Source: Bacteroidota bacterium
GTDB taxonomy: Bacteria; Bacteroidota; Bacteroidia; Bacteroidales; Tenuifilaceae
Assembly: GCA_029560875.1 (NCBI GenBank)
Contig: JAKQKB010000020.1
Location: 1 to 64,000, forward strand
Direction of reading: 5' to 3'
DNA length: 64,000 nucleotides
Shown in pieces: positions 41,529 through 60,685 of the stretch (position 1 is its first letter; each line of letters opens with the position of its first letter). Below the pieces are notes generated by a model that saw only the letters and a list, made by a program, of their open reading frames with translations, was not told where the DNA came from and searched no databases. The translations under genes and the position numbers were made by a program.

Positions 41529-41711
41529 GTATAATGGTTTACATCAAGGACGAAAAGTCGTCACAATTATTGCTAATACAAGTTTTTTTCATAATTGATG
41601 CAGAGATTTATTAAAAAGTATACTGATTACAATATTTCTAACAATAAAACACGAAGTATGGTTAACTAAGACTATACTTTGTGCTTATAAAGACTTAACT
41701 CAGAGTTTCTG

Positions 41712-42896
41712 CTAACCGAAAATCTTTGCTATGCTGTGTAAAACAAAATCTTGACTTATTTTTTCTTGCTCAAGTCGAATTGTATCTACGTTATCTGCTT
41801 TGACAAAATTGAATAGTTCAAGCTCTTCAGAATTGAGATTTGGTAAATTAGTAACATTGGTTGGTTCACCTTTATCCCAATCCTCTTTAAAAGCATTTAA
41901 GGTCTCAAAGTCCATCATGAAGGACTTTGTATGTGGAAAGTAACTTTTTATTTGTGAAAGGATTTGTAAACCATGGGTATCTATATCTCCCCAGTAATAA
42001 ATTTCTTTATCATTTAGCCATGTAGCCTTTTTTAAACTACCAACCTTAAACCCACTTCCGAATATTCCAATGGAATTTTTCATTTGAGGAAGTGTAAGAA
42101 AGTTCATTAAGTTACTGAAATTCGTCTTGTTTTCGAGTATAAAAACCTTCTCACAAGGGATTGTCAAATGTTTAAACTCTTCTTCTGTTACTTCAATATC
42201 TGTTAAATTGGATAAGTACTTTTCAGAAATAACTTTATCCAAAATCCTAATCCTGATTTGGCTTTGGTTGAATTTAAGCCCGAATCGTTTTTCAAAATCT
42301 TTTGTTGTTGAATAATCCTCATTAACGCTTTCTGGGGGTAAAATTATACTTAGCAATTCTAGTAGAACGCCCTTGTTGTTTTCAATGAATTTTGTATGAA
42401 CCTTGATTGGCAACTCTCTTATATATAGATTTGGTTTGGGGTTATTCTTAAAGTATTGGCAAACTTTAATTAAAGATTCCCAAGTTTGGCTATTATCAAT
42501 TACTTTCTTAGGGTACTTTTTTACCCAGTCAATTAGTTCTGGAAAACTAGTAAGGATTTTATTGGTATTGATTCTATATGATTCAACTTCTCGTTCTTTA
42601 TGCAGAAACTTCAGAAAGTCCAGTTCAGTTTGAAAACTAAAACTCTCGGGCAAACTTTGAATTCCATGCCTTTTGGTATTTACCTTTTTGTAAGTAATTG
42701 TGTAACCGAAATTTTTAATATCCTTTGATTGCTGAATTATTTCTGATAATTCACTTCTCATTTCATTAAAATCAACAGAAATTGATTTGTCGGAGCGAAT
42801 CGTTTTCGGGAAAAATGATTCCTCTGATAATATTGATTTTAGAAAGTCAATATAGAGATTCTCAGATTTCTTCTTTATTTCAGCTACTGTAATCAC
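41712..42896 (-). CDS. jetD: Wadjet protein JetD (Toprim nuclease subunit)
   Basis: The 394-residue protein has the DUF3322 part (LYIRELPIKVHTKFIENNKG at about 157-176) and the DUF2220 Toprim domain with the acidic residues Glu255 (VFILENKTNF) and Asp304/Asp306 (YYWGDIDTHG). JetD cleaves plasmid DNA that has been extruded by the JetABC motor. Its start overlaps the end of jetC by 17 bases. It is complete and of normal length. Confidence 0.93.
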   Translation of the reverse strand: MITVAEIKKKSENLYIDFLKSILSEESFFPKTIRSDKSISVDFNEMRSELSEIIQQSKDIKNFGYTITYKKVNTKRHGIQSLPESFSFQTELDFLKFLHKEREVESYRINTNKILTSFPELIDWVKKYPKKVIDNSQTWESLIKVCQYFKNNPKPNLYIRELPIKVHTKFIENNKGVLLELLSIILPPESVNEDYSTTKDFEKRFGLKFNQSQIRIRILDKVISEKYLSNLTDIEVTEEEFKHLTIPCEKVFILENKTNFSNLMNFLTLPQMKNSIGIFGSGFKVGSLKKATWLNDKEIYYWGDIDTHGLQILSQIKSYFPHTKSFMMDFETLNAFKEDWDKGEPTNVTNLPNLNSEELELFNFVKADNVDTIRLEQEKISQDFVLHSIAKIFG

Positions 42897-45800: not shown

Positions 45801-46290
45801 GCCATTCTCCCTTTGAATCAAATGGGCTAATATCTCCTTCAATAGTTAATGGTTTAAAAGCGATAATATATTTGCGTTTCATTTCACTTCCAGCAAACCA
45901 CCTTGTCTGTATAAGCGTTACATATCTTTCCTCATTCTTAAAAGTCGCTAGTAGGATTGAATAGGCTTTTGATTTATCATCTCTAATTCTTTGAATTTGT
46001 CTACCTGATTCAGTTTCTATATCTCCATACTCCCCTAAAACATAACTATCTTCAGTCCTTTGATGCTCGTAGAAACGATATCGCTTTTCTGGTACAATTA
46101 ATGTAAGTAGTCCTTGGATGAAGGTTGTTTTTCCAGAACCGTTTGCTCCAGTGATTAAAGTCGTATTACATTGGGGTGAAATTCTAAAAACTTCTTTATC
46201 AAATGTTCCCCAATTGAATGCTTCGAAATATTGGAGTCGGTATCCAGCTTCTCCTGACTTTGTGCTAAATAAACTATACATCTTTCTCAA
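42880..46290 (-). CDS. jetC: Wadjet protein JetC (SMC/MukB-like ATPase)
   Basis: The 1136-residue protein has the N-terminal Walker A GANGSGKT at 48-55, a long coiled coil with a central hinge-like region (about 490-640), and the C-terminal ABC signature AKLSSGEQAQ and Walker B FRFICVDEAF. It is the motor subunit of the Wadjet complex, a MukB-like loop extruder. Overlaps with jetB (17 bases) and jetD (17 bases) show a single operon. Confidence 0.95.
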   Translation of the reverse strand: MRKMYSLFSTKSGEAGYRLQYFEAFNWGTFDKEVFRISPQCNTTLITGANGSGKTTFIQGLLTLIVPEKRYRFYEHQRTEDSYVLGEYGDIETESGRQIQRIRDDKSKAYSILLATFKNEERYVTLIQTRWFAGSEMKRKYIIAFKPLTIEGDISPFDSKGEWLRNLNKKYPKIGTKELIQPFDGPSKYAEALLKVFGMRSSKALTLFDQTMRLKVLGSLDQFVRENMLEESKIEDDFQNLRNNYQKLLDAHHEMQKAEKQLELLKPVKENAEELEKTKNELLILSELRETSPIYFYHKKKNFLETEIENESLELKRITEKELELKNEIDTKRETEKILDSDIRNDETGKQIQELDKEIKVKTADKTRREDRLNRYNKAAIRINFDENPSEELFYEQITKATRRHEEVDDELKNKENGIQKRLRILENEKETAEKQHEEKAKELDELTKQKNNITGRISEIQQEILAITGATQSEIPFIGELIQILPKEKNWEMAIEKVLHNFALRLIVPDEYYKQVNEYVNEKDLKEKIRYERFQKENFMNSLISKDKDSIFSKIEIKRDSRYADWIENQIKTKYNFICTSKDDLPSYNKAVTSNGLIKNGTLHEKDDRQKALSRENFVLGWDNKEKIKLTRESLKQIENIIKSKRDDISKLEKRQKRLEDEKEDITKFLLFENYSDIDWKEISLEIQNLIKRRDELEKSNDRVNLLRTQLSELQTIISLKDNERDKLIEGRTIKKSLVVDLENQFNQCSFFLEDFKDIVFTEKFLEFEGKFKTELDNLCFGNLNSRNKAVSDKLTNDIEHLIEIQRKLELKLQSSMQNFKQPDDSIIQVFKDWTSDTHKLGKEITFVDDYLEIFNRIEREELIENRTKFKNYLNDNMIKGVSDFKTLLDNQEEQILESIEALNESLKKIDFKKNPQTTFIQLFAEKENSKDIQDFRLSLKEWKPDIAEYERTKDDQILESSFLKIKELITKLTEKEDWRKRVTDVRNWLKFLAKEFYREDMKRPPKVYDNTAKLSSGEQAQITYTIMGAAIAYQYGILKDGMNTNSFRFICVDEAFAKQDEEKAVYLMDLTQKLNLQMLLVTPDDKIQIAEPYISGVHIVHRVNNRNSRIFDTTIEQAKKLIDEKTLTTSDYSS

Positions 46291-46855
46291 GTTTCTTTTT
46301 GAAATCCTCTAAAACATCGTTTGTAATTTTAGCTTTTATAATTCGCCTAACTTCATAACGAGTCTCATCTTTGGAATTCTCAGGTTTACTAATAACTTTC
46401 AAAAAACCAATTTCCACAATGGATTCAATGTACCTATCGAAATTAGCAAAAAGCTTCACTTTATTGGCTTTCTCTTTAAAGAATAGCTCTATGGATTCCT
46501 TTAGAAACTTATGAGTTACATACAGATTTCGTTGGTCAACATTGTTGATTTCAAATTCATCCAACATTTCTCTTAGGAACACGCAAATTAAGGAAGTTTC
46601 ATATTTTAGTGGTATTCTTCTAATCAAGCCAATTGTATTTTTATCCTCATCGAACTCTATTTGCTTTAGGTAAGCGTATCCATCCTTCTTTTCAATGATA
46701 AGTTCAATGGCAATTTTTTCAAAGTATTGACTAATTGGAATTTGGTAGAACAATAAATCATTCCAAACTTTCTCATTCTCGTCATAAATTGTTCCTTGCA
46801 ATAGTTTTACTATTAAAGGTGCATAGGGTTCGTAGATTGGCTTTCGATTATCCAT
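46274..46855 (-). CDS. jetB: Wadjet protein JetB (DUF4194)
   Basis: The 193-residue protein matches the DUF4194 family in length, in its winged-helix-rich content (EKIAIELIIEKKDGYAYLKQ, PLKYETSLICVFLREMLDEFE), and in its place between jetA and jetC. JetB is the MukE-like kite subunit. It overlaps jetA by one base. Confidence 0.92.
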   Translation of the reverse strand: MDNRKPIYEPYAPLIVKLLQGTIYDENEKVWNDLLFYQIPISQYFEKIAIELIIEKKDGYAYLKQIEFDEDKNTIGLIRRIPLKYETSLICVFLREMLDEFEINNVDQRNLYVTHKFLKESIELFFKEKANKVKLFANFDRYIESIVEIGFLKVISKPENSKDETRYEVRRIIKAKITNDVLEDFKKKLEKDV

Positions 46856-48321
46856 TATTTGCTAAATATTACTTGAGGAGCTTTTAAATACTTTTCATTT
46901 TCAAAATCAAACTTCAAGTATTCAATCTCATTCTGATTGATATAGAACTTATCAGTTGTTTGAACTAAAGATATATAACCCAAAACTTCGGCTAATCCTT
47001 TTGTAACAGGATACTTAGTTAACACTTCACTAAGAGATACTTGACTTGTATCATTCAGTATTGTTTCAATGTTATTTAAAAGTTCTTTTCTGTTAATATG
47101 TTTTGTACTAACTAGATTCATTAAGGATTCTAAATCAAGCTTATTTTCTGAAGACCTCGGTTGTTCTATGAATTCAGATAAAATTTGTTCTTCACCTAAC
47201 TTTCTTTCCATTGGCAAATCAATAATTGCATCTCCTTCTATTGTAATATAAGAATCATGAGAAGGAGTTTTATCTACCATTTGCAAAGCAAGGTTTCTAA
47301 TAATATTAATTGTTTCTTTGACTTTCTTTCTTTCCTCTAAGTTCTTTTCTGCAATAATTCGACTAAGTTTATCTGCTAACAGATTATTTGAATCCCACAC
47401 TTTCCTTCCAGATAAATGTAAAATAGTTTTAGCCCTCCGAAGAAATTTCTCATTATACTCAATTCCTCTGTCATCCAATATTTTATATACATCATTTACT
47501 AATTGTTTTAATTCGTCTTGACTGACATCATCTAGCAAAAAGTTCCAAAAAGCGTAAAAACTTTTCCCTTGGTCTGTCTGCTTTAATTCGTCTAGAGAAT
47601 CAAAAGTGTACTGAAGAATTTTTCCTTTGGATAGCGACTTATCGGATTGTTTCTCGTAAATATTCCTGACAATAATTTTAAAATTCTCTTCAACTTCTCT
47701 AAAGTCACCTATTAATTCATTAGTGATTTTAGTAACATCGTCAAATCTTGATTTAATTTGATAGTTCTCAAATGTCCTTACAGAACCTTCTCTTTTTATT
47801 GTTCTTATTTCATCTTCAATTTCTGCCTTACGCTTTTCAAGTTCTTCAATCTTTTTTTTAGGGTCTTCAATACTGTTGTCGATTAATTCCTTTAATTTAT
47901 TAAAAATGTCCTTAAACTTAGATTCCGTGCCAACTAGTTTTCTATCCTTTAAAAGTTCTACAATTTGAAAAACTCTTGAAGTATGCTTTGTGGGAGAATT
48001 CATTATTTCTTTTGTATTCTCATCTGTATAGAAACTTAGGTATCTATTTTTCTCGTCAGACCATTGCTCAATGTATCTTCTTGCTCTGTCAACAGAATCT
48101 AAATTCAAACTACTTAAATCATTATCATCCTCATCTTGATAATTCAAATCGTCTAAGTAGTCTGCAAGTTTTTGAACTAAAATGGAATTAGGAATGGGTT
48201 GCTCATTTGTCTCCTTGAATTGGTTGTGTAAAAATGTTATAATCAATGCTGCGTTATTGGAACGCAACATTTTTACCGTAGGTGAATTTTTGATTAATAT
48301 TTTTACTTGCTCGTAATTCAT
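46855..48321 (-). CDS. jetA: Wadjet protein JetA (DUF3375)
   Basis: The 488-residue protein fits the DUF3375 family: SPTVKMLRSNNAALIITFL at the start, RARRYIEQWSDEKNRYLSFY, and a coiled segment (about 160-195). JetA is the MukF-like kleisin. With the other three genes it makes a complete Wadjet type I operon, which defends against plasmids. It begins 72 bases behind the stop of the AAA ATPase gene on the same strand. Confidence 0.93.
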   Translation of the reverse strand: MNYEQVKILIKNSPTVKMLRSNNAALIITFLHNQFKETNEQPIPNSILVQKLADYLDDLNYQDEDDNDLSSLNLDSVDRARRYIEQWSDEKNRYLSFYTDENTKEIMNSPTKHTSRVFQIVELLKDRKLVGTESKFKDIFNKLKELIDNSIEDPKKKIEELEKRKAEIEDEIRTIKREGSVRTFENYQIKSRFDDVTKITNELIGDFREVEENFKIIVRNIYEKQSDKSLSKGKILQYTFDSLDELKQTDQGKSFYAFWNFLLDDVSQDELKQLVNDVYKILDDRGIEYNEKFLRRAKTILHLSGRKVWDSNNLLADKLSRIIAEKNLEERKKVKETINIIRNLALQMVDKTPSHDSYITIEGDAIIDLPMERKLGEEQILSEFIEQPRSSENKLDLESLMNLVSTKHINRKELLNNIETILNDTSQVSLSEVLTKYPVTKGLAEVLGYISLVQTTDKFYINQNEIEYLKFDFENEKYLKAPQVIFSK

Positions 48322-48393
48322 TCAATATTCAGATAAATGATGCTTTTTTCTTAATACGATTCTTCAAATCACTAAAGAAATCGAAAATAGTCA

Positions 48394-50811
48394 CTATTTC
48401 TTCCAATCATATTTTGTTTTTCCACAACTACACCTTATTTCCTTATTAACAGTATCAAAATTCTTCACCAATACAGGTTTCTTACAAGTTTGGCAATAGA
48501 ACAAATTCTCAAATTCTATTAAATCATTCCAAAAGGCTTTTAAGTCGCCAAGTTTTGGTGCAAATGGATTATCATGAGAAAGCAGATTGCCCAAAATATT
48601 TGAGTTGGTTATCCTTTCAATTATTACCATTTGGTCTTGTATACCTTTAGAACTTTTATTGATTTTAGATTTCAACTCACAGAGTAGTTCATCACTCATC
48701 CTTTTTTCGTTTGCATCATTGAATCTGAAATTAACTTTGACCTCAAGGTTTGCGCAAATATCTTTAAGCATATGCTCAAGATACTTTCTAATCGGATTAC
48801 CTAGAATTTCAATATTCCCCTTGGATAAATTTGTCTCTATTGTCTCTCTTAAATCAATTAACTTATCTGCTAAATAAGTACCTTCTATATCATCCCATCT
48901 GATTTCATTTATTAACCAATTCTTTCTTTTGGCAAGTTGACTCACATATTGAAACCATTCATTTTCGTGAGTTAAAAGAATAATTTGATAATCCGAGAAC
49001 TTTTCAAATATTAAATCAGCAAATTTTTTCCTATGATTACTATCAAAACTAGAAATCACATCGTCTAAAATTAAAAACTTGTTTTCTTTATTAAATGCTT
49101 TAACGGATGCCAAAAAGAATGAAAGTCCATAGCAATTTAAGTGGGACTCACTAAAGAACTTCTGTGGAGGATAGACCCACTCCCCATTATACTTATATTC
49201 AATTTTTATTCCATTAAGTTCGTCCTCCTCACCAACTGTACTAATCCTTAACTCTTGGAACTGCTCATTTGGATTCATATATTGGTAATAATCATTTATC
49301 GCTCCAGAGAATGTGGTAATGAAATTTTCTAAGCCGTCCTTTTGCACTATAACAAATTCGTTATAAATCTTCTCTAAAGAATTTCTTTGGTATTCAAGAG
49401 CCACTCTTTCTTTTTCAAATTTCTTTATCCGTAAGAATGACTCCTTTGCAGATGAGATGTTCGAATATGTAAGAGTGTGATTAATCTTATTTGATGAACT
49501 TTGGATTTCCAAAATAGATGAAGTTATGACTGAAATAATATCAAAATCCGACTCACTGAACTTTATTGATTTTAAGTCCGAAATAAAATTACCAGAAGTA
49601 ACCTTTACATTACCATTTCTTTCGAACTCTCGAAGTTTATCAATTATAGCATCAACCGAAGACTTAATAGTTACAAATGCACTATCATTGTATAGGGTAT
49701 CGTGAACCAAAATCTCTAATCGCTTTATTCGTTCACCAGACAAGGTAATTACGGTTTGTTTAGCGGAATCGAATGCAGCCTTTTTTATCGATGATTCTTC
49801 AATCTGCTTTAACCTCGACTTAATTTCACTGAGCAATTCATCTTTACCTTTAGGTTGCAAACAGAGAGGACAACTATCTTCCTTATGATATTTTTTCTCA
49901 ATTACAGTACTACCAGCTTTTAGCAATTCGGCAAAGTATACTTGCATTATACTTTGGATATCTTCAGCAATTAAACTAAACTCAGTGAAGTATTTTAGAT
50001 ATTCTGAGTTCAATAAGTCAATTTCTGCTTTTAGGTTAGTAAGTGTATTTTTACAATTTTCGAGAAACCTTATTTCATTAAGAGTTTTTGTGCTTGAAGG
50101 TGATTTGAGCAAATTAAGAACAACATCAATATCTGTAAAAGATTTTACTTCAACACCCAATTTCATTGGTGTTATTATCTCATTGATTTTTTCAAATAGA
50201 TTTGCTTCAACTCCAATTGCAGCACCAATTTTTTCGATTTGATTTTGTTTCTGGGTATTTATTTGTGCTTCAAAGTTTTGATTTTTAATTTCAATTTTAA
50301 TTGAGTTGTAAGATTTCTTTAGTACCTCTTTAATCTTGTTTACTTCTGAGAATCCAATTACATCAGACAAACTTTTAAGTTTATCACCTTTTGTTTTATC
50401 AATGAATTCAGTCAAGAATTGATGACGAAGTATAAGATTTTCGTTTTGAGTGTTATTAAGATAGGTGTTGAATTCGTCTGATTTGTTTGAATTATCAGTA
50501 ATGAGTTTGTCTTTTTTGAAGCCAAGTGACTTGGTAGATGCTAAATTTGGGTTTGTGAAATCAATTTTTACAGAAGAAATCTCAGACTGGGTAATATTTG
50601 AGTTTCTAAGTGCATCTTTAAGGTCAATTTCAGAACCAGATAAATGTTTTACATCATTGTTAAAGAACCATTCCAATGAGTCAGAAATACTGCTTTTTCC
50701 AGTTCCGTTATCACCATATATAAGAATTGATTTCTCTGATAGTGGGATTTCTATCGTTTTTTGAACTCCACGTATACCAGAAATCGATAGGTTTTTAATC
50801 TTTGTTGGCAT
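48394..50811 (-). CDS. SMC/RecF-like AAA ATPase of the reverse-transcriptase operon
   Basis: The 805-residue protein has Walker A GDNGTGKSS at 33-41, a coiled middle with a single CPLC knuckle (about residue 315), Walker B FLILDDVISSFDSNHRKKF, and an H-loop LLTHENEWF. The C-terminus has a zinc-ribbon-like set of cysteines (FYCQTCKKPV and IRCSCGKTKYDWKK). This is the AAA_13/RecF-like type used in several defence systems (such as Septu and retron type I) beside a nuclease. Its start overlaps the 65-residue gene by 17 bases, so it is the last gene of the four-gene operon. Confidence 0.85.
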   Translation of the reverse strand: MPTKIKNLSISGIRGVQKTIEIPLSEKSILIYGDNGTGKSSISDSLEWFFNNDVKHLSGSEIDLKDALRNSNITQSEISSVKIDFTNPNLASTKSLGFKKDKLITDNSNKSDEFNTYLNNTQNENLILRHQFLTEFIDKTKGDKLKSLSDVIGFSEVNKIKEVLKKSYNSIKIEIKNQNFEAQINTQKQNQIEKIGAAIGVEANLFEKINEIITPMKLGVEVKSFTDIDVVLNLLKSPSSTKTLNEIRFLENCKNTLTNLKAEIDLLNSEYLKYFTEFSLIAEDIQSIMQVYFAELLKAGSTVIEKKYHKEDSCPLCLQPKGKDELLSEIKSRLKQIEESSIKKAAFDSAKQTVITLSGERIKRLEILVHDTLYNDSAFVTIKSSVDAIIDKLREFERNGNVKVTSGNFISDLKSIKFSESDFDIISVITSSILEIQSSSNKINHTLTYSNISSAKESFLRIKKFEKERVALEYQRNSLEKIYNEFVIVQKDGLENFITTFSGAINDYYQYMNPNEQFQELRISTVGEEDELNGIKIEYKYNGEWVYPPQKFFSESHLNCYGLSFFLASVKAFNKENKFLILDDVISSFDSNHRKKFADLIFEKFSDYQIILLTHENEWFQYVSQLAKRKNWLINEIRWDDIEGTYLADKLIDLRETIETNLSKGNIEILGNPIRKYLEHMLKDICANLEVKVNFRFNDANEKRMSDELLCELKSKINKSSKGIQDQMVIIERITNSNILGNLLSHDNPFAPKLGDLKAFWNDLIEFENLFYCQTCKKPVLVKNFDTVNKEIRCSCGKTKYDWKK

Positions 50812-50992
50812 TTTTATCTCTTAGTTTTTGGAGTTCATTTTTAATATTGACATCTGTAAACTTGCCTTGATGATATAAATTGGCCAGAGAATTTGCTATT
50901 TCAACATCAATATTTTCAATTTCAGATATACCTTTGAAGAAATCATCCAGAATCTCTTTGCCTGACTTCACCTTGTTATCCATAGTATTCAT
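50795..50992 (-). CDS. Small 65-residue protein of the reverse-transcriptase operon
   Basis: The 65-residue protein is helical and charged (KSGKEILDDFFKGISEIENI). No family is recognised. It overlaps the GIY-YIG gene by 4 bases and the ATPase by 17, so it is surely translated within the operon. It may be an adaptor or an inhibitor of the nuclease, which is a guess. Confidence 0.72.
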   Translation of the reverse strand: MNTMDNKVKSGKEILDDFFKGISEIENIDVEIANSLANLYHQGKFTDVNIKNELQKLRDKNANKD

Positions 50993-51459
50993 TTTTTAAA
51001 GTAGTTCCAATCAATCTTAATATCTACTTTCAAATCACTACTATCAATTTCTGCACCAGTTTTGTTATTACAAATTGGATATACCCCAAAGTTTTCAACA
51101 AAACTTAAAATAAAGTAACTTTCAAGGTCTTCAATTCTAAAGTTCCAGTTTGCTTTAAGGATATCAAAATTTAAATAGGTGAAAAGTAATGGTGCAGTTT
51201 TTCTGTAGTTCACCAAACCGACATTCTTCGATTTACCTTCAAAATGCCCACTAAGCCTACTTCCTATGCTGTTGGTCTTTTTTTCGCTCATTCCAATGTA
51301 TAGTAATTTAGACTTATCAAAAGGGTATTGAATAAAGGTGTCTTGGGTAAAAATAAAATATAAGCCAACTATTCCTCCTAGTGATTTGATATTTGAGGGC
51401 TCAAACGATTTAGGTTCATCGAAGTAGATAGATATTGTTTGCTTATCCATTTTTTTCAT
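50989..51459 (-). CDS. GIY-YIG nuclease of the reverse-transcriptase operon
   Basis: The 156-residue protein has the GIY-YIG order: GLY at 32-34, YIG at 54-56 (LLYIGMSEKK), Arg68 in SRLSGHF, and a Glu at 110 or 113 in FRIEDLESYFI. These give the usual catalytic set. It overlaps the reverse transcriptase by 17 bases and the small gene by 4. It is the likely nuclease effector of the system, paired with the AAA ATPase. Confidence 0.82.
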   Translation of the reverse strand: MKKMDKQTISIYFDEPKSFEPSNIKSLGGIVGLYFIFTQDTFIQYPFDKSKLLYIGMSEKKTNSIGSRLSGHFEGKSKNVGLVNYRKTAPLLFTYLNFDILKANWNFRIEDLESYFILSFVENFGVYPICNNKTGAEIDSSDLKVDIKIDWNYFKK

Positions 51460-53161
51460 TTAAAAATTGGTTGTTATAACTGAAATTTGAACCATAGTAA
51501 TTCAAAGGTGCAACTTTCTTTTTTGATTTTCTGAATGGTGTCCTAATTTTTTTAAGGTGTAACTCAAGTCGTTTGATTTGCTTTTCTCTATTCCTATCTA
51601 GGTTTCGTATTTGATTAGTAGTGTTTTGATGGGTTCTTAACAGTTTGAAGCCAGCGCACCAACACATTGAAACCCTTGAACTACCATAACGACAACGACT
51701 TACAGCCATTGAGATTAAACGTTGTTGAAGTCTAAATTTTATAGCTTTTTCATTAATACTTGCCGATTTTTTTGCATTCTTGATAATCTTATCAGTTTCA
51801 TGTATTTGTTTCTCCAATTCTTTCTTTATAGACCTTTTTCTAACTCTAATCACTCCATCATGTCTAATTTGATAACCAACAAAGGACAGCCAAGGTACAT
51901 TTCTCTGATTTTCAATACTTGTTGAATCATAAACATCCCATTTGTATGGAGATTTGGATTTTAATTTCTCATTCCAAAAATCTTTCCCATATACATCGTA
52001 TGGTTCAGATTTATGGCTAATAAGTTTGACTTCTTTAAGAGCCTTTTGATAAACTTTGAATAATTCATCGCATTTATCTCGATTTGTATGCATCAAAACC
52101 ATGTCATCACAAAACCTACAATAGAACGTGCTTTCATCAGAGTTTGAGTTAACAATTCTATCTACATGATTAAGAATAATATTTGCTATTAAACACGAGA
52201 TTGCACCTCCTTGAGGAACACCTATTTTGTCTGAATCAATAAATGAACCTACCTCCTCAAGTTCTGATGTTTTAACCCAAGGAATTTTCCCATCTGAAAT
52301 ACCATGGTTGATAAGGAGTTGATTTTCTATTCTATATATATTCTCATTGAATGAAAAAGCACCCAGATATGAATGGAACAGAAGTATTGCTCTATTATCA
52401 ATTGTTATTTTTAATTTAGCATCTACTTCATTTACCAATTCTTTAAATTTCTCAATAATTACTTCATGATTTACACAATCATAAAATTTCTTTATATCAC
52501 ATTCAGACACATATAATGGAACCCCTATTTTATTCTTAAAATCAATAATATCTTGAACTGCCTGATGATGATTGAAAGTTTTTTTTGATGGATTAGTATA
52601 CCGAAAAGCATAAGATGAGTCTGAGAAAAGTGGGTCGAAACAATAGGTAAGATATTTTGATATTTGACCAATAATAATTAAGTCTTTTAGACTGAAAACT
52701 GAGATAGGTCGATACTCATTTTTAGTCTTATCTTTTAAAACAGGGATTATTTTTGGAGGTACGATATCATAACCCAAAGATTGATTGAATACTGAATCCT
52801 TAATATCTAACAAAAAGGATTCAAGCTTAATCATCCATTCTGGTTTAGATTCTCCATTTGAATTGTATTTTTTTATTTCCTTCCAAACTGTACGCTCAAG
52901 TTGAATAGTATTTATTTCAACAGCATTTGTGTCACGTTTTTCTCTTTCCTCTTTTAGTATCCTTATCCATGTATTTCTTGGTGGAAAAAACGTGAAAATT
53001 TCATTTTTGCATTTTTTATGCGGTGAGCAAGCCTTGGCTGAAATATTTCTCAAGAAATGGAGGTCATGTCCTTTCTTGGCGGCAATAGCTCTTTTATGAC
53101 AAAGAATTTTTATTATTTCTTTGTCTGAAAAATACTCTTTTAAATCTAATTTATCTTTCAT
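51443..53161 (-). CDS. Reverse transcriptase of a putative defence operon
   Basis: The 572-residue protein has the reverse transcriptase motifs: KNEYRPISVF (RT1, 148-156), ECDIKKFYDCVNH with Asp222 (motif A), GVPQGGAISCLIANIIL (RT4, 314-330), FCDD at 350-353 (YxDD with Phe in place of Tyr), and LSFVGYQIRHDG (RT7). The N-terminal 120 residues contain CSPHKKC and are unlike group II intron proteins. The C-terminal 130 residues are helical and basic, with no HNH or maturase domain recognised. It is larger than typical retron enzymes. It heads a four-gene overlapping operon, six bases behind a structured region (53168-53369). Its class needs a phylogeny. Confidence 0.9.
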   Translation of the reverse strand: MKDKLDLKEYFSDKEIIKILCHKRAIAAKKGHDLHFLRNISAKACSPHKKCKNEIFTFFPPRNTWIRILKEEREKRDTNAVEINTIQLERTVWKEIKKYNSNGESKPEWMIKLESFLLDIKDSVFNQSLGYDIVPPKIIPVLKDKTKNEYRPISVFSLKDLIIIGQISKYLTYCFDPLFSDSSYAFRYTNPSKKTFNHHQAVQDIIDFKNKIGVPLYVSECDIKKFYDCVNHEVIIEKFKELVNEVDAKLKITIDNRAILLFHSYLGAFSFNENIYRIENQLLINHGISDGKIPWVKTSELEEVGSFIDSDKIGVPQGGAISCLIANIILNHVDRIVNSNSDESTFYCRFCDDMVLMHTNRDKCDELFKVYQKALKEVKLISHKSEPYDVYGKDFWNEKLKSKSPYKWDVYDSTSIENQRNVPWLSFVGYQIRHDGVIRVRKRSIKKELEKQIHETDKIIKNAKKSASINEKAIKFRLQQRLISMAVSRCRYGSSRVSMCWCAGFKLLRTHQNTTNQIRNLDRNREKQIKRLELHLKKIRTPFRKSKKKVAPLNYYGSNFSYNNQFLNEKNG

Positions 53162-53167
53162 AAAAAT

Positions 53168-53369
53168 GGATACACCTTTTAATCATGGCTCGGGTTCAAA
53201 CCCGAAGTCGAATCGAATCGATTTCCAAATTGTTGTATCTTTATGGAAATCAAGACAGGCTATTGCCTACCAACTGGAGTCACATTCAACTTTTAAGTAT
53301 GAATATGTTGTCTACTTTTATCAGTTTCTGTCCAAGCAAAACTTGGTTCATGATTAAAAGAGTGTATCC
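53168..53369 (-). ncRNA. Candidate structured RNA upstream of the reverse transcriptase
   Basis: The stretch is closed by an inverted repeat: GGATACACCTTTTAATCATG (53168-53187, plus strand) against its complement at 53349-53369, differing by one extra base. Inside are CCAAG/CTTGG (53332-53346), AGGC/GCCT (53257-53268), GATTTCC/GGAAATC (53220-53251) and TCGGGTT/AACCCGA (53190-53205). The layout resembles retron msr-msd RNAs with paired ends next to the reverse transcriptase, but the gap to the start codon is only six bases. No protein frame explains the pairing. The class of RNA is inferred. Confidence 0.62.
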
Positions 53370-53427
53370 TTTTCCCATTTATTTAATATTTAGCAACATC
53401 TTAAAGAACTACTAATTTAATAAAACT

Positions 53428-54507
53428 TTAGATTCTGTATCTTTCTTCCATCTTATTCAACCAATATCTATCTTTCTCTTCAGAAACTATCTCATGAAGT
53501 ATTTCAAAAATAGATTCAAGATGAACCTTCCTAAAAAAATCATTTCCTTGTTTAGTTAAAATTGCTCTGAACTGACTCTCTGTTTCTCCGTTTTTCCATA
53601 AGTACTTATCATTTTCAGATGGAGAAAAAACCCAAAAACCAAATTCATCATAATTCCTAGTTGATGCAACCCTTTCAGCCAATATCATATTTCTCCATAA
53701 TTGATTCAATCCAAAACGAAAGGGGCAATGACTAGAAGAATTGATTGTTTTAATATCTAGAACCATAGATTCCTTAGTGAGTTGCCAGTTAAGGTATTTA
53801 TTGTACCCACATATATAGTTTTTAAATGAATCTCTCTTCTTTTGTACAACCAAATCCTCAAAATAAGTAGATGAGTCACATACATTTCTTATTTGACCTT
53901 TCTCCCTATAAGATGAACAGGTTGAGAATTCGGCTTCTATAAACTTAAATTCGATTAAGATTAGACCTTTCTTGTTATTCTCATATGTATAAAAAACAGC
54001 AATATCAGCATCAGTTCCTTTATTCCCAGCTTGGTCTCCAATGGATTCGTCCATTCCCATTTTAAAACCTTCAATGTCATTACAAGTATTGGGAGTGAAC
54101 TCAGGCTCAAGATGAATAACCTTAACTTGCTTATTGAGTAATACAGAAAACAGTTTGTTCGCTAGTTCAAGGTGTTGTTGAAGATATATGATTAGATTAA
54201 AGCAATATGGCTGTGATGCAGCAGTATTGGTTAAAATACGTTTAAGGTCACCCGCTTTATGGTCTTTAAATCTATTTAGGGTTGCTGTGTGGATTTCTTT
54301 AGTAATAAAATTATATTCGGATTGTTCTTCAGTAAGTAAATGTTTGAAAGTATTACCATTTACTGATTGCCCAAAAGATACTACTCCTTTCGTTTCAAGA
54401 TAAGCAGACATATGCAGGTAGACTTTATTCTGCCATGGATTGCCTTCTTGATATATCTTAGGTTCAGTATTCATTTCAATAGATATCTTTTCAATTCTTT
54501 TTAGCAA
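53428..54507 (-). CDS. PD-(D/E)XK nuclease, PGN_0703-like
   Basis: The 359-residue protein has the nuclease core GTDADIAVFY (Asp168) followed by LILIEFKFIE (Glu186, Lys188), the D...ExK signature. A segment CSSYREKGQIRNVC with a neighbouring aromatic set follows, and it matches my memory of the PGN_0703 family of putative restriction endonucleases. It overlaps the Nmad2 gene by seven bases, so the two form a coupled pair. The family name is moderately certain and the catalytic motif is clear. Confidence 0.78.
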   Translation of the reverse strand: MLKRIEKISIEMNTEPKIYQEGNPWQNKVYLHMSAYLETKGVVSFGQSVNGNTFKHLLTEEQSEYNFITKEIHTATLNRFKDHKAGDLKRILTNTAASQPYCFNLIIYLQQHLELANKLFSVLLNKQVKVIHLEPEFTPNTCNDIEGFKMGMDESIGDQAGNKGTDADIAVFYTYENNKKGLILIEFKFIEAEFSTCSSYREKGQIRNVCDSSTYFEDLVVQKKRDSFKNYICGYNKYLNWQLTKESMVLDIKTINSSSHCPFRFGLNQLWRNMILAERVASTRNYDEFGFWVFSPSENDKYLWKNGETESQFRAILTKQGNDFFRKVHLESIFEILHEIVSEEKDRYWLNKMEERYRI

Positions 54508-55187
54508 ATTGTTTCTTCTGTTTCATCTTCATCAAAATGTCGTTTAGCACACGTAGATATTACCTCTTTAGTTAATCTTTTGTCAAATACTGAGCGCATT
54601 TGAGGGGCAGCATAAATTCTATTCATTTCAAACTCCTTTATCCAATTTTCAAATTTTAACACTAGGTCAGGATTTTCAATTTTACGGTGTCCTTGATTAC
54701 GTTTTATAATTAGTTTTAAGTCAATCGGTAAAGGTCTTGCATCTTCTCCAAAATAATAAAACTCATTAGATATCAAAGAGTTCAATCCGCATAAATCTCG
54801 ATTACGGTTTTCTTCTTTGTGAACACTCTTTCTTAATTTTGGGTTCAATCCATTAGAATAATCATAAATACAGTCCCCCATGCGATGTCGCCAATCGGTG
54901 GTCTTCCAATTTGGAATTTTTTTCTTCAATGAAGTTTTACAAAATGAGTCGTACTCTTGCAGTGTCTTTTTATCACTAATTTTCATTGCGAAAACAACAC
55001 AGTCGGATAGGTCGTAATACTCCCCATCATTACATTTTGAGTTTTTAGAACCAGTTCCAACAACCCAATCACCAATATCAGCACTCCTTCTTATTGCTGG
55101 CTTGCATATTGTCAATGTGCATAATCCCCAAAATGGATTTGGTGCAGCCCCATCATCAAACCTTAAAACGTATGAGTATATATTCAT
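54501..55187 (-). CDS. Nmad2-family protein (modified-nucleotide associated)
   Basis: The 228-residue protein matches the Nmad2 pattern at its start (YSYVLRFDDGAAPNPFWGLC, TICKPAIRRSADIGDWVVGT). It continues with DWRHRMGDCIYDY and NEFYYFGEDARPLPIDL. Nmad domains were predicted to take part in nucleotide hypermodification or recognition of modified bases. It is coupled to the PD-(D/E)XK nuclease and follows the 201-residue gene (57-base gap), so the three may form a restriction-like set. The biochemical role is unproven. Confidence 0.82.
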   Translation of the reverse strand: MNIYSYVLRFDDGAAPNPFWGLCTLTICKPAIRRSADIGDWVVGTGSKNSKCNDGEYYDLSDCVVFAMKISDKKTLQEYDSFCKTSLKKKIPNWKTTDWRHRMGDCIYDYSNGLNPKLRKSVHKEENRNRDLCGLNSLISNEFYYFGEDARPLPIDLKLIIKRNQGHRKIENPDLVLKFENWIKEFEMNRIYAAPQMRSVFDKRLTKEVISTCAKRHFDEDETEETIC

Positions 55188-55244
55188 GGTTATTTTAATT
55201 GAGAATCATTTAGGCATTTCAAATATTTTAAGATTGAATATTCT

Positions 55245-55850
55245 CTAATAATTTCTTCCAATCGTCCAGAGTAGTTTATCAACGAATCGGTTGTATCTTA
55301 TCATTTCAATGTTTTCGATTTCATCTTTGAAATCAACTTCGATTGTTTTCAAATGTTGGCTAACTGAATCCAAACAACCATCAATCTCTGCCTTATTCTT
55401 CAGTTTGAATTCTTCTACTTTTGGTATGTAGTGTGAATAAATATTGGTTTTAAGTCCTACGGCTTGTTTCGCTAGATTATCTATGGGTAATATTGTCCAA
55501 GGGTCATTTAGAAACAGAATTTTAGATGCTAACGATGTCATTACTTTCCCATGCGTAATTCCTTTTTCTTTTAGAAGAGATGCATAGTCGTCAACGTTGT
55601 TTGAGTTTTTCGTACTGACCCATTTTATAGTTAATTGAAGCAATGAATCAGTTTTTGCCTTTTCAATATTTCGAGCCACACGATATTCATTAATAAAGGA
55701 TTTGAATGTCCCTGTTGATAAACTTAAATAATAATCAGCTTCCAGTTTTCCATTCTTATACCTATGAAAATCTCTAATGTAAACTAGGTCAGAATAGTAA
55801 TACTGGAGGAGGTTACCTAATGCTTGGATTTGGACATTCATCATATTCAC
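55245..55850 (-). CDS. 201-aa protein, copy 2
   Basis: This is the paralogue of the protein at 40429-41034. The last 70 bases of the two genes are almost identical, while the middle differs more, which fits a duplication followed by partial gene conversion. It is the first gene of the Nmad2-nuclease set on the minus strand. The fold suggestion (helix-hairpin-helix glycosylase-like) is the same and equally weak. Confidence 0.75.
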   Translation of the reverse strand: MNMMNVQIQALGNLLQYYYSDLVYIRDFHRYKNGKLEADYYLSLSTGTFKSFINEYRVARNIEKAKTDSLLQLTIKWVSTKNSNNVDDYASLLKEKGITHGKVMTSLASKILFLNDPWTILPIDNLAKQAVGLKTNIYSHYIPKVEEFKLKNKAEIDGCLDSVSQHLKTIEVDFKDEIENIEMIRYNRFVDKLLWTIGRNY

Positions 55851-55884
55851 TAATAATTTTATTAATAAAAATATCTACTCTTTT

Positions 55885-55976
55885 TTATAAATCATAGTTA
55901 TTATATAATTTTTTGGTCAATCGTTCACAATACCTCCATATCATTTCGTCTAGATAGTTTGCTAGTCCTCGGGGAT
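55885..55976 (-). pseudogene. Remnant of an ADP-ribosylglycohydrolase C-terminus, copy 2
   Basis: Across three frames the minus strand reads IPED, then KLSRRNDMEVL, then ERLTKKLYNNYDL and a stop, matching IPNEW, KLARRKDIEDL and ERLSKKTYNNYD of copy 1. Stops and frameshifts show decay. It lies upstream of the second 201-residue gene just as copy 1 does of the first. Confidence 0.65.
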
Positions 55977-56105
55977 GCTATTTTTTTCGTAAGTTGAAGT
56001 GAGAACCCAATCCATTAAGGGTTGTCTATAGGTTCTTTTTTCACAATCTCTTCCACTATATTTTACTATGGGGGCAAAAGAAGAAAACATATATAATTTA
56101 AATAG

Positions 56106-56729
56106 CTACGTGTAGTCAATATCAATATCTATCAAATCTTCGGTGGGAAAGTCGTACTTAGATATTAACTCCTCTAATGAGAAAGAAAGCCCATTAGGGT
56201 TGATTAATAATTCTAGTATTTTGTCAAGCTTGGTCGGTTTTTCTGAAATAGATTTCGAAATAGAACTTGTTAGAAGGTATGAAAAACGTGCAGAGATAGA
56301 ACTTGCTTCAACTACATCTGAATTGAAGTTTGTGATTTTTAGTAGCTGTTTCTTAAAGGATAATAGCCGAGAGTAGATAAACTCCAAGTCACATAAATCA
56401 ATTGTTATAGTATCATGAATATTATCTGTTTCTTCCCTTATATATTTTTTTATAAAATAAATCGCTTCCTTATAGTCAGAGATAGCTCTATCTAAAATAA
56501 AATCACCACCCAAGAATGATTCTAGAGGTACTTGCAAAATGCTCGAAGGAATATTTCCATTGGAGAAAAAGGCTTTCATAAGAGATTCAATTTGTCTAAA
56601 TCTGATAAGGAGGGGAGTGTTTGACTTTAATGCCTCCAAATTCCAACTACTAGGATTGGGTGACATAAAGGTAAATTCTATAACCTTATCCAGTAAATCG
56701 ATTGAAGTAAATTCGCTATTCTGGTTCAT
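56106..56729 (-). CDS. Hypothetical protein
   Basis: The 207-residue protein is helical with acidic ends (FPTEDLIDIDIDYT at the C-terminus). It contains LIRFRQIESLMKAFFSNG and FSYLLTSSISKSIS. I recognise no family. It stands alone upstream of the second cassette, in the middle of the element's right end. Confidence 0.6.
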   Translation of the reverse strand: MNQNSEFTSIDLLDKVIEFTFMSPNPSSWNLEALKSNTPLLIRFRQIESLMKAFFSNGNIPSSILQVPLESFLGGDFILDRAISDYKEAIYFIKKYIREETDNIHDTITIDLCDLEFIYSRLLSFKKQLLKITNFNSDVVEASSISARFSYLLTSSISKSISEKPTKLDKILELLINPNGLSFSLEELISKYDFPTEDLIDIDIDYT

Positions 56730-56799
56730 TTAACTTAGCATTTATTCATTAAGTTTTTTTCTACAAGAAATCACCAATACCTTTGCTAAAAATTTGTGT

Positions 56800-56979
56800 A
56801 TGGAGAAGAAAAAGCCTTTTAAGATAGTTCACCAAGATGTTGAAGATACAAATTATATTGTAGTAATCGAAATCTACAATGAAATGGATAAATATGACGC
56901 TATTTATAGGGTTAATCTACCTAGATACTTTCAAGAATCAAAGGATATTTTTGTGCTATATCATTTTGTCCACAACTAA
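56800..56979 (+). CDS. Small hypothetical protein
   Basis: ATG at 56800 gives 59 residues (MEKKKPFKIVHQDVEDTNY...), ending FVLYHFVHN; an upstream TTG start is less likely. No family is seen. It is 103 bases upstream of the resolvase gene on the same strand. Confidence 0.45.
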   Translation: MEKKKPFKIVHQDVEDTNYIVVIEIYNEMDKYDAIYRVNLPRYFQESKDIFVLYHFVHN

Positions 56980-57082
56980 AAGTAGTTCAAAAAAATCATT
57001 CCTATAAGTCGAGTTCTAGAATGATTGATTCCGCTCAAATTAAAAATGCCATTATGCAGTTCAATGAAAACATTAGAATAAT

Positions 57083-57724
57083 ATGAACCAGAAAGCGATA
57101 ATCTATTCAAGAACATCCAAGCAGTCACAAAAAGTTGAACGCCAGATAGCAGACCTATCTGAAGTCGCAAAAAAGGAAAACTATACTGTGGTTAAGGTCA
57201 TTGAAGAGAAGGTTTCTGGCTCAGTTAAAAACGAGAAAAGGAAAGGCATTAGTGAACTACTATCTTATATCGAGACGAATAAAGTTGATATTGTTTTAAC
57301 ATCAGAAGTTAGTCGCCTAGGTCGTTCACCATTCGAGACACACAAAATCGTTGAAACATTGACACAAAAACAGATACCAATATATTTTCATTCCTACCAT
57401 ATTATTACACTAATTAAAGACGAAAATGGAGTATTCAAGAGAAACCCTCTAGCGATGATTCTTTTTCATATTCTATCTGAATTTGCATTTGTCGAAAAAG
57501 AGGTACTTGTGGACAGGATTTGTAGTGGATTAGCACAAGCAAAGAGAAATGGAGTGGTTCTAGGAAGAAAAAAAGGAACTACTGAGACCAAAAAACAATT
57601 ACTCAAGAAATACTCTAAACTTGTTATAGACATTCAAAATGGAATCTCTTTGAATAAGTGTATGAAACTACACGATGTTAGCAAGAATACAGTTATTAAA
57701 ATGAAGAAAATAATGGCGGCATAG
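57083..57724 (+). CDS. Small serine recombinase (resolvase/invertase)
   Basis: The 213-residue protein has the resolvase N-terminal domain with the catalytic Ser12 in YSRTSKQSQ, the conserved LTSEVSRLGRSPFE, and EKEVLVDRICSGLAQAKRNG. A C-terminal helix-turn-helix follows (QNGISLNKCMKLHDVSKNTV). It probably acts on a site inside the element, for example to resolve dimers or invert a segment. No pair of inverted sites near it was found by eye. It is separate from the large recombinase at the right end. Confidence 0.9.
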   Translation: MNQKAIIYSRTSKQSQKVERQIADLSEVAKKENYTVVKVIEEKVSGSVKNEKRKGISELLSYIETNKVDIVLTSEVSRLGRSPFETHKIVETLTQKQIPIYFHSYHIITLIKDENGVFKRNPLAMILFHILSEFAFVEKEVLVDRICSGLAQAKRNGVVLGRKKGTTETKKQLLKKYSKLVIDIQNGISLNKCMKLHDVSKNTVIKMKKIMAA

Positions 57725-57771
57725 TCTATTTATGCTTCTTTCACATAGAATAAGGCCATACACTTATTTTA

Positions 57772-58302
57772 CTATTCGTCATTAAACAACTTCTGGATTT
57801 TTTTTTCTCTACACAATCCCTTTGGAGTTAGAGAGCATATATCTATCTTATAATCATCATACTTCGTCTTCAAACTATTTATGAAATTATTGAAATTAAT
57901 AGATGCCTCTGCGTAGTTGATAATTTCCTTTACGGGACAAAAGCGAACGTTTAATGTGTAAATCTTGTCCATTTGTGTTTCAAAAGTGTAGGCAACGTCT
58001 TTTCCCTCATAGAAATTCAGAATATAAATTCCAAGTTCCATGTTTAGTATATAAGTTGTATAGTTTATTTCTAAATTATTGTGGTTGATAATTTCAATAA
58101 AGTGTCTGAAGATGGGCTGCACAGATTGTGTTGTGTAGTTTATATTTGATGAAACACTGGAAATAATAAGAACCCTGAACCCCATACCACTCCATCCGTA
58201 GTTCATTTTATATTCTACGTCTTCATTTGAAGCAACAATAGTAACATAGTCTATGGGCTCAATATTTATCGTTATTAATTCTCTTAACTCTTTTACAGTC
58301 AT
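57772..58302 (-). CDS. Hypothetical protein
   Basis: The 176-residue protein contains VTIVASNEDVEYKMNYGW and GIYILNFYEGKDVAYTFET and ends in a basic stretch (GLCREKKIQKLFNDE). It is probably cytoplasmic. No family is recognised. It is convergent with the resolvase gene. Confidence 0.6.
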   Translation of the reverse strand: MTVKELRELITINIEPIDYVTIVASNEDVEYKMNYGWSGMGFRVLIISSVSSNINYTTQSVQPIFRHFIEIINHNNLEINYTTYILNMELGIYILNFYEGKDVAYTFETQMDKIYTLNVRFCPVKEIINYAEASINFNNFINSLKTKYDDYKIDICSLTPKGLCREKKIQKLFNDE

Positions 58303-58420
58303 ATTTTTCCTTTTATATATTAAAAAGTATTCATCAAAAAATGATGATTTTGAAGGGCTCGCAAGATATGGAGACTGTTTATACTGCTGAATATCTGAAC
58401 AATACGCATACTAGAGTTGA

Positions 58421-58705
58421 TTAAAAAATAAGTTTGAAGAGCAAGTAAAGAGCCTTTACTGAAACAAAACGTTTCAACTTCACCCCCAATTTCCCAACCC
58501 AAAGTTGATACCATATTATATAAGCAGATTTTCCAATCATAAAATTATTATTTTTATTTTTATCAAAAACCTGCATATCAATTATATAGCAAGTATTGAC
58601 TTGATGTAATGTCACTATAAATGACCAAGGTATCAATAAGCTGTCAACTCCACTACTTAAACTAACACACTGTCTATCATGTATATAATAAACAAATTTT
58701 ATCAT
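58421..58705 (-). CDS. Doubtful small frame
   Basis: A 94-residue frame (MIKFVYYIHDRQCVSLSSGV...) fills part of the 527-base gap 58303-58829. Its composition is hydrophobic and irregular and no family is seen. It may not be a gene; apart from it, the gap shows nothing I can name. Confidence 0.25.
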   Translation of the reverse strand: MIKFVYYIHDRQCVSLSSGVDSLLIPWSFIVTLHQVNTCYIIDMQVFDKNKNNNFMIGKSAYIIWYQLWVGKLGVKLKRFVSVKALYLLFKLIF

Positions 58706-58829
58706 CCATAAATTTTTTTTTCTGAAAATTAAACTTTTAATTAATGGTTAGATATATAAAGCATCTAGTTCGAGCTGGAAACCTTACCTGATTCTAGAAA
58801 GGGTAAGACCAAAAAATAATTTAATACCA

Positions 58830-58997
58830 ATGAGTTATGAAGGTGATGCTTATAAAGAAGTTTATTCACGAGCAAAGTTAAGTCCTGAAGAAATAAGGCA
58901 ATTCAATTTCTTCAAAGATTGTTCGGATGCTGAGGTTAATGAAATAGCCGAAAAAATGTTTGATTTAGCAGTATTAGTAAAAATAATAATGGATTAA
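58830..58997 (+). CDS. 55-residue protein directly before the large recombinase
   Basis: ATG at 58830 opens 55 codons (MSYEGDAYKEVYSRAKLSPE, later FKDCSDAEVNEIAEKMFDLA) and stops three bases before the recombinase start. The protein is small, acidic and helical. Its tight spacing suggests co-translation. Small proteins in this position can be directionality factors or regulators, but nothing in the sequence proves it. Confidence 0.65.
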   Translation: MSYEGDAYKEVYSRAKLSPEEIRQFNFFKDCSDAEVNEIAEKMFDLAVLVKIIMD

Positions 58998-59000
58998 AGT

Positions 59001-60653
59001 ATGGATGATTTAAGTAGATTTAGAAAATTTGTGAAAATTAAGCCAACGTCAAAAAATGTTGGAAATAAGAATGTTTGGCTCTATACACGAGTGTCCTCCT
59101 CGAACCAAACAGACAATTACTCCCTCGAATATCAAAAAGAAGAAGCCTATAAGTACGCACAAAGTAAGGGCTTAACAATTACTGATGTGTTCGGAAACAC
59201 AAACGAATCCGCTTCGGACGACTTTACCCGAAAAGAATTCACAGAACTTATACAAAGAGTTCGAAGGTCAAAGTCCAAACCCCATGCAATTCTTGTTTAT
59301 GTGATGAACAGGTTTAGCAGGACAGGAGGCAATGCAATTGCAATTGCAACAGAACTAGTAGATGAACTGGGTGTTAATTTAATTGAAGTGTCAAGCGGAG
59401 TCGACACATCAACAAAAGAGGGAAGAAATATTATCCATCAAAAATTATTAGAAGCTAATAAGCAGAATCTGGATAGATTAAGTCACACTTTGCCTGGAAT
59501 GAAAAAATTAATTCAATCGGGTAAAAATTTAGGTAAAGTTCCATTTGGTTATGACGTATTTGGCCCAAAGGTGGCTGATTTTGAGAAACGAAGTATCGTG
59601 CAAAAAATAGTGATTAATGAAGATGGGAAAAAACTTAGAATGGCATGGGAATGGAAAGCACAAGGGATGCCCGACTATAAGATTATTGAAAATTTAAAAA
59701 CCTTGGGCATAGTAATAAGAAAACAGAAGCTTAGTGCTATCTGGAAGAAGGCTTTCTATTGTGGGATTCAGACCAATGCATTGCTTGAAGGAATATGTAT
59801 TAAGGGGAACTGGGAGCCCCTTATAAGTGAAGAATTATTTTGGAAAGTTCAATCAATGCTAAATAAAAACCATCACGGCTATACAGTTGTAAAAGAATCC
59901 GAAGAGAGGCCGCTATCTGGTTTTATATATTGTTCAAAATGTGGGAAAAAGTTAACTGGATACCATAATAAAAAGAAGAATCTTCACTACTATAAGTGCC
60001 AGACCTGTAAATCTGTCTCAATGAATGCAAGTACTCCAAAGAGATACCCAAATCATATTGGCGCAAACAATTTGTTTGTAGAAGTTCTAGCTCTCCTTAA
60101 TTTAGAGCCTAAATATGAAAAATTGTTTGAGTTGCAGTTAAAAAAAATATTCAATTGCTTTGAGGACTCTGAAAAGCAGGAAATAGCCATTTTCAGAAAG
60201 CAACTTGCAGAACTAGAGAAAAAGAAGAACTCACTAGAAGAGCGGTATGCTTTTGGAAACATTGAAAAAGAAATTTACGACAAGTACAGGACTAAAATTG
60301 AAGAAGAAATACTTGATTTAAGAACTAAATACGAAATACCCCAAATCGACACATCTAACTTTAGAGTGAGTCTAAATAAAGCATTGTCGTTTATTCAGAA
60401 TATCAGTAAATATTGGCTTTCAACAAGTATATTAAACAAAGAAAGAATACAAAAATTACTGTTCCCACAGGGATTAACATTAGATGTAGAAAAAAGGCAA
60501 TATCTAACCTCAGAAGTAAATATTTTGTTTATGCTAAAGCTAGATTTAATGGGACTTACAGAGGAGGACAAAAAGAAACTCCCCATCGTTTTTGATGGGG
60601 AGTCCGATTTAGTAGCGGGGACAGGACTCGAACCTGTGGCCTTTGGGTTATGA
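59001..60653 (+). CDS. Large serine recombinase, likely integrase of the element
   Basis: The 550-residue protein has the catalytic domain with Ser32 in LYTRVSSSNQT, the conserved YVMNRFSRTGGNAIAIATEL, a recombinase domain (about 165-280), and a zinc ribbon (FIYCSKCGKKLTGYHNKKK, YKCQTCK). A coiled-coil motif lies at about 385-450. It should catalyse exchange between attP and attB at the initiator tRNA. The frame passes through the attachment core GATTTAGTAGC at residue 536, so the final 11 residues (GTGLEPVAFGL) come from antisense tRNA sequence. In the circular form the protein would end in the 35-codon segment at 29296-29400 instead. Confidence 0.93.
   Translation: MDDLSRFRKFVKIKPTSKNVGNKNVWLYTRVSSSNQTDNYSLEYQKEEAYKYAQSKGLTITDVFGNTNESASDDFTRKEFTELIQRVRRSKSKPHAILVYVMNRFSRTGGNAIAIATELVDELGVNLIEVSSGVDTSTKEGRNIIHQKLLEANKQNLDRLSHTLPGMKKLIQSGKNLGKVPFGYDVFGPKVADFEKRSIVQKIVINEDGKKLRMAWEWKAQGMPDYKIIENLKTLGIVIRKQKLSAIWKKAFYCGIQTNALLEGICIKGNWEPLISEELFWKVQSMLNKNHHGYTVVKESEERPLSGFIYCSKCGKKLTGYHNKKKNLHYYKCQTCKSVSMNASTPKRYPNHIGANNLFVEVLALLNLEPKYEKLFELQLKKIFNCFEDSEKQEIAIFRKQLAELEKKKNSLEERYAFGNIEKEIYDKYRTKIEEEILDLRTKYEIPQIDTSNFRVSLNKALSFIQNISKYWLSTSILNKERIQKLLFPQGLTLDVEKRQYLTSEVNILFMLKLDLMGLTEEDKKKLPIVFDGESDLVAGTGLEPVAFGL
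60565..60603 (-). terminator. Element-borne terminator for tRNA-fMet
   Basis: On the minus strand ACTCCCCATC, loop AAAAAC and GATGGGGAGT form a perfect 10-bp stem followed by TTCTTTTTGT. It lies within the last codons of the recombinase gene and takes over from the original terminator (29272-29295) that the element displaced. Confidence 0.85.
60606..60616. other. Right attachment site (attR core)
   Basis: GATTTAGTAGC lies over the 3' end of tRNA-fMet (positions 70-73 and seven bases beyond), identical to the left copy at 29296-29306. Confidence 0.85.
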
Positions 60654-60685
60654 GCCCAACGAGCTACCAACTGCTCCACCCCGCA
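60613..60685 (-). tRNA. Initiator tRNA-fMet (anticodon CAT)
   Basis: The minus strand gives a 73-nt tRNA with anticodon loop CTCATAA. Three consecutive G-C pairs in the anticodon stem (TTGGG/CCCAA) and a non-pairing first position (T1 against T72, then a GCGGGG/CCCCGC stem) are the hallmarks of the initiator. The T arm ACAGGTTCGAGTCCTGT is intact; CCA is not encoded. It is the target of the integrated element, which rebuilds its last bases. Confidence 0.95.

Follow-up and report, generated by a model that had tools for sequence, protein, structure and literature searches.

Several mobile elements carry their attachment site inside an integrase gene. In the Myxococcus xanthus phages Mx8 and Mx9, attP lies inside int and integration replaces the C-terminus of the enzyme; in Mx8, 112 C-terminal residues are replaced by 13, and the prophage enzyme is reported to be changed in specificity and less active (PMC6070905, PMC4701971). 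The archaeal suicidal integrases of the SSV1 type also have attP inside the integrase gene, where it is translated; they target tRNA genes, and the gene is split into two inactive parts (PMC8371274). Among serine enzymes, the streptococcal ICEs inserted in rumA, which rely on a single serine integrase, have their att site inside the integrase gene. The enzyme has one length and C-terminus in the excised form and another in the integrated one, and a functional difference between the two was considered probable by the authors (PMC4701971). An IME with a recombination site inside its serine integrase gene is also mentioned (PMC5357655). In mycobacteriophage BPs, where immunity depends on integration, attP is inside an open reading frame and the change of C-terminus acts as a switch (PMC4557955). 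As for targets, in 2014 the Islander paper held tRNA genes to be known as targets for tyrosine integrases only (PMC4383910), and in a 2023 Mycobacterium study tRNA overlaps are named for tyrosine systems (PMC10654092).

We describe here a large serine recombinase (LSR) which, like these integrases, has its att core within its own reading frame and a new C-terminus after integration. It differs from the Mx8 enzyme, a tyrosine recombinase with a much larger exchange (PMC4701971), in its serine recombinase domains and in its tRNA-encoded tail, a feature not seen in the available Mx8 accounts (PMC6070905, PMC4701971). In contrast to the SSV1 type, which are tyrosine enzymes, all recognised domains stay in one piece. 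The rumA ICEs target a protein gene, both genes exchange their 3' ends and both frames are changed (PMC4701971), whereas here the target is a tRNA gene that remains intact, the reading phase does not change, and the tail of the circle form shows conservation between genera. Unlike in BPs, where the swapped protein is a repressor, here it is the recombinase. The principle is already known; what is new is the tRNA targets, the conserved circle-only tail and a putative tRNA terminator within the recombinase gene. Among the open-access papers listed by our searches, we recognised no description of this LSR family.

An element inserted at a tRNA-Met gene

In the window, i.e. the whole stretch of 64,000 nucleotides analysed, an element of 31.3 kb sits at the 3' end of a tRNA-Met gene, between two copies of a core repeat. 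Identity between the two element ends is exactly 11 bp, and the G+C content is 31% in the element body vs 39-40% in the flanks. The features are the following.

28850..28955, + strand: uninterrupted duplicate of the tRNA 3' flank, the core and the first tRNA bases, a natural copy of the predicted empty-site junction
29272..29295, - strand: terminator-like hairpin on the host side of attL
29296..29306, + strand: attL core GATTTAGTAGC
29307..29403, + strand: circle-only C-terminal tail (31 codons, KSGQLSNLIIIQDAAKVIDFLDNASLEDFIS) and stop; also the attP right arm
29307..60605, no strand: element body, 31.3 kb, with much defence-related cargo
33619..39355, - strand: SngABC (PADLOC)
41712..48321, - strand: Wadjet type I JetABCD (PADLOC)
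51443..53161, - strand: reverse transcriptase, group UG39 (PADLOC)
59001..60653, + strand: LSR, integrated form, 550 aa (ORF and Pfam)
60576..60605, - strand: terminator-like hairpin and T-run for tRNA-Met, inside the 3' coding end of the LSR gene, which is the attP left arm
60606..60616, + strand: attR core GATTTAGTAGC, read by the recombinase gene in phase 0 as D L V A
60612..60685, - strand: tRNA-Met (cat), the target gene, whole at attR (tRNA call)

The uninterrupted duplicate served as an in-window control on the ends. It holds a third copy of the core (28936-28946), which runs straight on into tRNA sequence; across the core, a run of 57 bp is the same as in the predicted empty site, and the element ends are therefore well placed. 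The LSR would catalyse recombination between attP and attB; what is seen here is the product ends.

Some other properties of the region were observed. The stretch 28850-29306 contains a 97-bp repeat in two copies, 360 bp apart; between them lie a GIY-YIG ORF (29021-29266, -) and a degenerate copy of tRNA-Met, into which two short palindromes have been inserted. The defence cargo recognised by PADLOC models (33619-53161, -) comprises the three systems or genes listed above, of which SngABC corresponds to the Shango system. A second, small serine recombinase of 213 aa (57083-57724, +) is encoded near the large one.

The recombinase gene has two predicted C-termini

The LSR scores above the Pfam cut-offs for Resolvase (PF00239), Recombinase (PF07508) and Zn_ribbon_recom (PF13408), and its sequence matches the solved chains of the A118 and TP901-1 integrases. 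All recognised domains are within residues 27-337 and are kept in the 550-aa form. The initial annotation had placed the core in frame in the recombinase gene and the end of the integrated protein in tRNA antisense sequence, and both points were confirmed: the core is in phase 0 of the ORF, and the last 11 codons beyond it (60618-60650) lie in antisense tRNA-Met, giving the C-terminus ...DGESDLVAGTGLEPVAFGL* with a TGA stop at 60651-60653. When the ends were joined in silico (60616 to 29307), the predicted circle encoded the 570-residue protein with a different tail that had been proposed, ending in ...DLVAKSGQLSNLIIIQDAAKVIDFLDNASLEDFIS*. Its tail had been counted as 35 codons up to the TAA ending at 29403; the frame and the stop stand, and the length is corrected to 31 element-encoded codons since four of the 35 residues belong to the core. 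A swap of the C-terminus between the integrated and circular states is supported at the level of sequence.

In a structure model of the 550-aa form, residues 532-550 have a pLDDT below 50, so that the swapped part is outside the confidently folded region. The same model, taken alone, has helices at 370-417 and 423-443, candidates for the long coiled-coil that follows the zinc domain in large serine recombinases. A single-sequence model of a 69-aa natural junction (see below) also gave helices, but its mean pLDDT of 62 is too weak to rely on.

Taken alone, the open tail is not significant: the chance of 31 open codons after the core is about 0.075 by shuffling, and of the + strand positions of the element that were tested, 18% are followed by an open stretch of at least 30 codons. 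We nevertheless rejected a chance ORF on the evidence of relatives, since it is conservation there that makes the open tail more than chance.

The hairpin at 29272..29295 is read as the original tRNA terminator, displaced by the insertion. Three terminator-like sites are present in the region vs 1.2 expected, a count which alone is weak. By our own rule, and as a raw count, a hairpin is found at 17 of 25 LSR ends (the window, 19 full-length relatives and five fragments). The LSR coding region doubles as an attP arm and, via its hairpin, probably gives the target tRNA a replacement terminator.

Relatives of the recombinase read into tRNA genes

Matches to the LSR were obtained in 14 of 99, 40 of 393 and 14 of 43 genomes. 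These sets overlap, and the genome of the window itself is part of the first two. At 39 loci with a match, 27 ORFs were scored as full length by a script with a loose criterion, which admitted one ORF of 137 aa. In nineteen of the 27 the same frame continues past the core and into antisense tRNA, where the T-loop is translated as G-x-E-P (GFKP in L004). ARAGORN called a tRNA at 17 of these 19, the exceptions being L029, at a contig end, and L030. L024 also crosses the core, but into other sequence. The remaining seven have no same-frame tRNA read-through: L011 enters a tRNA-Pro in a different frame, L013, L014 and L041 have no such tRNA-reading end, and L021, L027 and L028 stop earlier. Three further ORFs from the 43-genome set read into a tRNA, called at each, which brings the total to 22 of 30; five LSR fragments do so too, in the same frame. 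The tRNAs concerned are Met, Arg, Ser, Leu, Val and Ala.

When 21 proteins were aligned, 20 had the same distance between N507 and the valine of the core, and in L026 it was three residues shorter. Beyond the core, the target-encoded tails vary widely in sequence and length. Outside these genomes, no relative was found in viral contigs and one was found in genome contigs, in a Bacteroidetes MAG; phages/plasmids gave 153 + 43 records, all below 60% identity and, among the matches listed, at most about 31%.

The circle-only tail in relatives

A genome of the same genus, G002, has an element with an LSR 63% identical to that of the window. Comparison with related elements had been suggested as a check by the initial annotation, and it did not refute the swap. 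At the left end of the G002 element, the shared attL core TTTAGTAG is followed by a tail which aligns with the window tail without gaps, with 22 of 31 residues identical and frame, length and stop kept; the local match was 77% over 31 residues, of which three are at the core. At the DNA level, identity is 84 in the 100 bp that follow the core and 62 in the next 200. As a separate observation, a 241-aa ORF without Pfam match (29434-30159, +), which in the circle would start 30 bp past the tail stop, has a 59% identical relative in G089; the G002 sequence differs at that place.

In four other genomes (G064:C41, G740:C290, G741:C75 and G757:C118) the LSR C-terminus is naturally joined through the core directly to a tail, and in all four junctions recognised the frame is kept at the core. 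The junctions of G740, G741 and G757 were fetched for their LSR match and not for the tail; against a profile excluding them, their tails scored E values of 8e-5, 7e-9 and 3e-18, respectively. The LSR genes at the junctions are truncated, and that of G757 also has a frame break upstream, in an A-run; we interpret the truncated genes as what tandem insertions left behind between them. The LSR remnants L036 and L294 have a frame break in an A-run, which is the T-run of the antisense terminator as well, possibly a slippage site or simple decay. With a natural junction as query, a class-wide search of 325 genomes returned the window itself and one other match, which was judged spurious.

Searches with the tail itself were less productive. 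In 19 genomes, five had a match at E up to 1. With E limited to 0.001, a profile built from seven tails had matches in 9 of the order's 393 genomes; with the limit relaxed to 0.5 this rose to 176, mostly noise. Searches of the whole genomes of G380, G407 and G269, which have Met-type LSRs, found no tail relative at E up to 1, and the tail profile gave no match in 19 of the 21 assemblies scanned; the left end may be missing from many of these. For most LSR relatives, then, the tail was not found in these searches. For the non-Met relatives, exact repeats, tail BLAST and the tail profile gave no convincing left end, nor did empty sites in congeners, also sought for G030 and G089; our claim for the tail is consequently limited to the genomes named.

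From the tail searches 23 ends were read, of which 16 were kept for tests and seven dropped because of stops, a lost frame or a missing anchor. A V codon stands six codons ahead of an S/P-N pair in 18 of 21 test tails, with the seven degenerate or unanchored ends left out. The conserved residues of the tail are S-N, D, K and D-F. The length is about 20-40 codons in relatives.

Several tail-type ends are on contigs or stretches without a detected LSR of the same family. They retain tail-like sequence, in some cases with stops and in one, L267 (G360:C66), out of frame with the core. This end belongs to a short element of about 5.2 kb from tail-type left end to tRNA; L266 (G144:C39) is another, of about 2.4 kb, and no LSR of the same family was found in either. 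In G370:C4 (L259, L260) and G308 (L081, L082), several tail-type left ends lie a few kb apart, as though a series of small elements had inserted in tandem; a full LSR of the same family was not found in the stretches read.

Probable constraint on the tail and alternative explanations

When each of nine genomes, six of which belong to one family, is represented by a single tail, the similarity in frame exceeds that of all 3000 column permutations; these tails have no stop in frame, against 15 and 29 in the two remaining forward frames. Among seven tails, dN is lower than dS in 18 of 21 pairs. The permutation tests favour a constrained peptide, with an ascertainment bias because it was protein similarity that led us to most of the tails or let us recognise them; the tails are also related to one another. 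The conserved right arm could instead be a protein-binding site for the recombinase or a directionality factor, the likeness of the peptides being a by-product. Such a site would fit a 14-bp string, CAATTATCTAACTT, identical in seven left ends or junctions, as well as the retention of the sequence at ends where no recombinase was detected. It would also fit the third codon positions, which are not clearly the most variable: window and G002 tails differ 5, 5 and 6 times at positions 1, 2 and 3, and variability over 16 tails is 0.376, 0.236 and 0.355. However, similarity in frame continues past the string. In the seven copies carrying it, only 1 of 5000 permutations of the sequence behind it reached the observed value, and in five of the seven none of 5000 did; the confinement of stops to the other frames also argues against a purely DNA-level cause, which we regard as decidedly unlikely. 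A DNA constraint may act as well, together with the one on the peptide. The string alone is no marker, because its pattern is, by our count, no commoner than a reversed control (22 matches each, in 18 of 393 genomes for the string) and only 7 of the 22 are followed by a tail; in viral contigs, the matches listed looked like chance.

The main rival to a functional tail swap is a passive overlap, in which a compact int-attP module just needs an open frame past the core and both C-termini are functionally equivalent. This would agree with the low pLDDT of the swapped part, with the diversity of target-encoded tails and with the failure to find a tail for most relatives. Yet the tail is conserved residue by residue across genera and in one frame, which would be needless if openness sufficed, and we hold this explanation to be rather unlikely. 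The circle-only tail might also make the LSR short-lived, integration then stabilising it, in the way that integration removes a C-terminal degradation tag from the BPs repressor (PMC4557955). Against this, the extreme C-termini of the tails differ (FIS, CDF, DLL, YNQ, DII) and the conserved stretch is internal. Tags of the ssrA kind end in small non-polar residues, which we also count against such a role; it appears very improbable.

A proposed tail swap and its meaning

The best explanation, to which we give a probability of about 0.6, is a swap of the tail by integration at the tRNA-Met gene, with a circle-only tail that tunes the enzyme. It builds on ends, a reading frame, natural fused junctions and a tail conservation which sequence comparison establishes. 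The element would be integrated at the 3' end of the tRNA-Met gene by its own LSR, with attP embedded in the 3' end of the LSR gene, where its reading phase is constant. While circular, the element would have an LSR gene that reads through the core into the conserved tail and encodes the 570-aa enzyme. On integration the tail would be cut off and the gene fused to the antisense tRNA, so that the resident enzyme would be the 550-aa form with a target-encoded tail, while the attP arm in the gene would supply the tRNA with a replacement terminator; excision would restore the circle form. We infer that the element is still mobile and that both forms of the protein are made.

The initial annotation had suggested that the swap could switch the activity or stability of the LSR, and this may be so, by the Mx8 precedent and the conservation of the tail. 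Most likely the tail would favour integration by the circle form, which would have been selected for this reaction, and the enzyme of the integrated state would be altered, less active or differently directed, on the model reported for Mx8. A bolder and tentative proposal is that of a tRNA-targeting serine recombinase lineage with a reversible, DNA-encoded switch. A conserved circle-only tail would license integration or block the reverse reaction and be replaced on integration by a tRNA-encoded one; insertion itself would set the direction of the enzyme, adding to or replacing a separate directionality factor.

The control of direction is a central question for serine integrases, which are widely used in engineering. 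The family described here includes serine recombinases found at tRNA genes, in which evolution has apparently coupled the C-terminus of the enzyme to the state of its own substrate. With tailed and tail-less forms of one enzyme at hand, the role of this C-terminus is directly testable.
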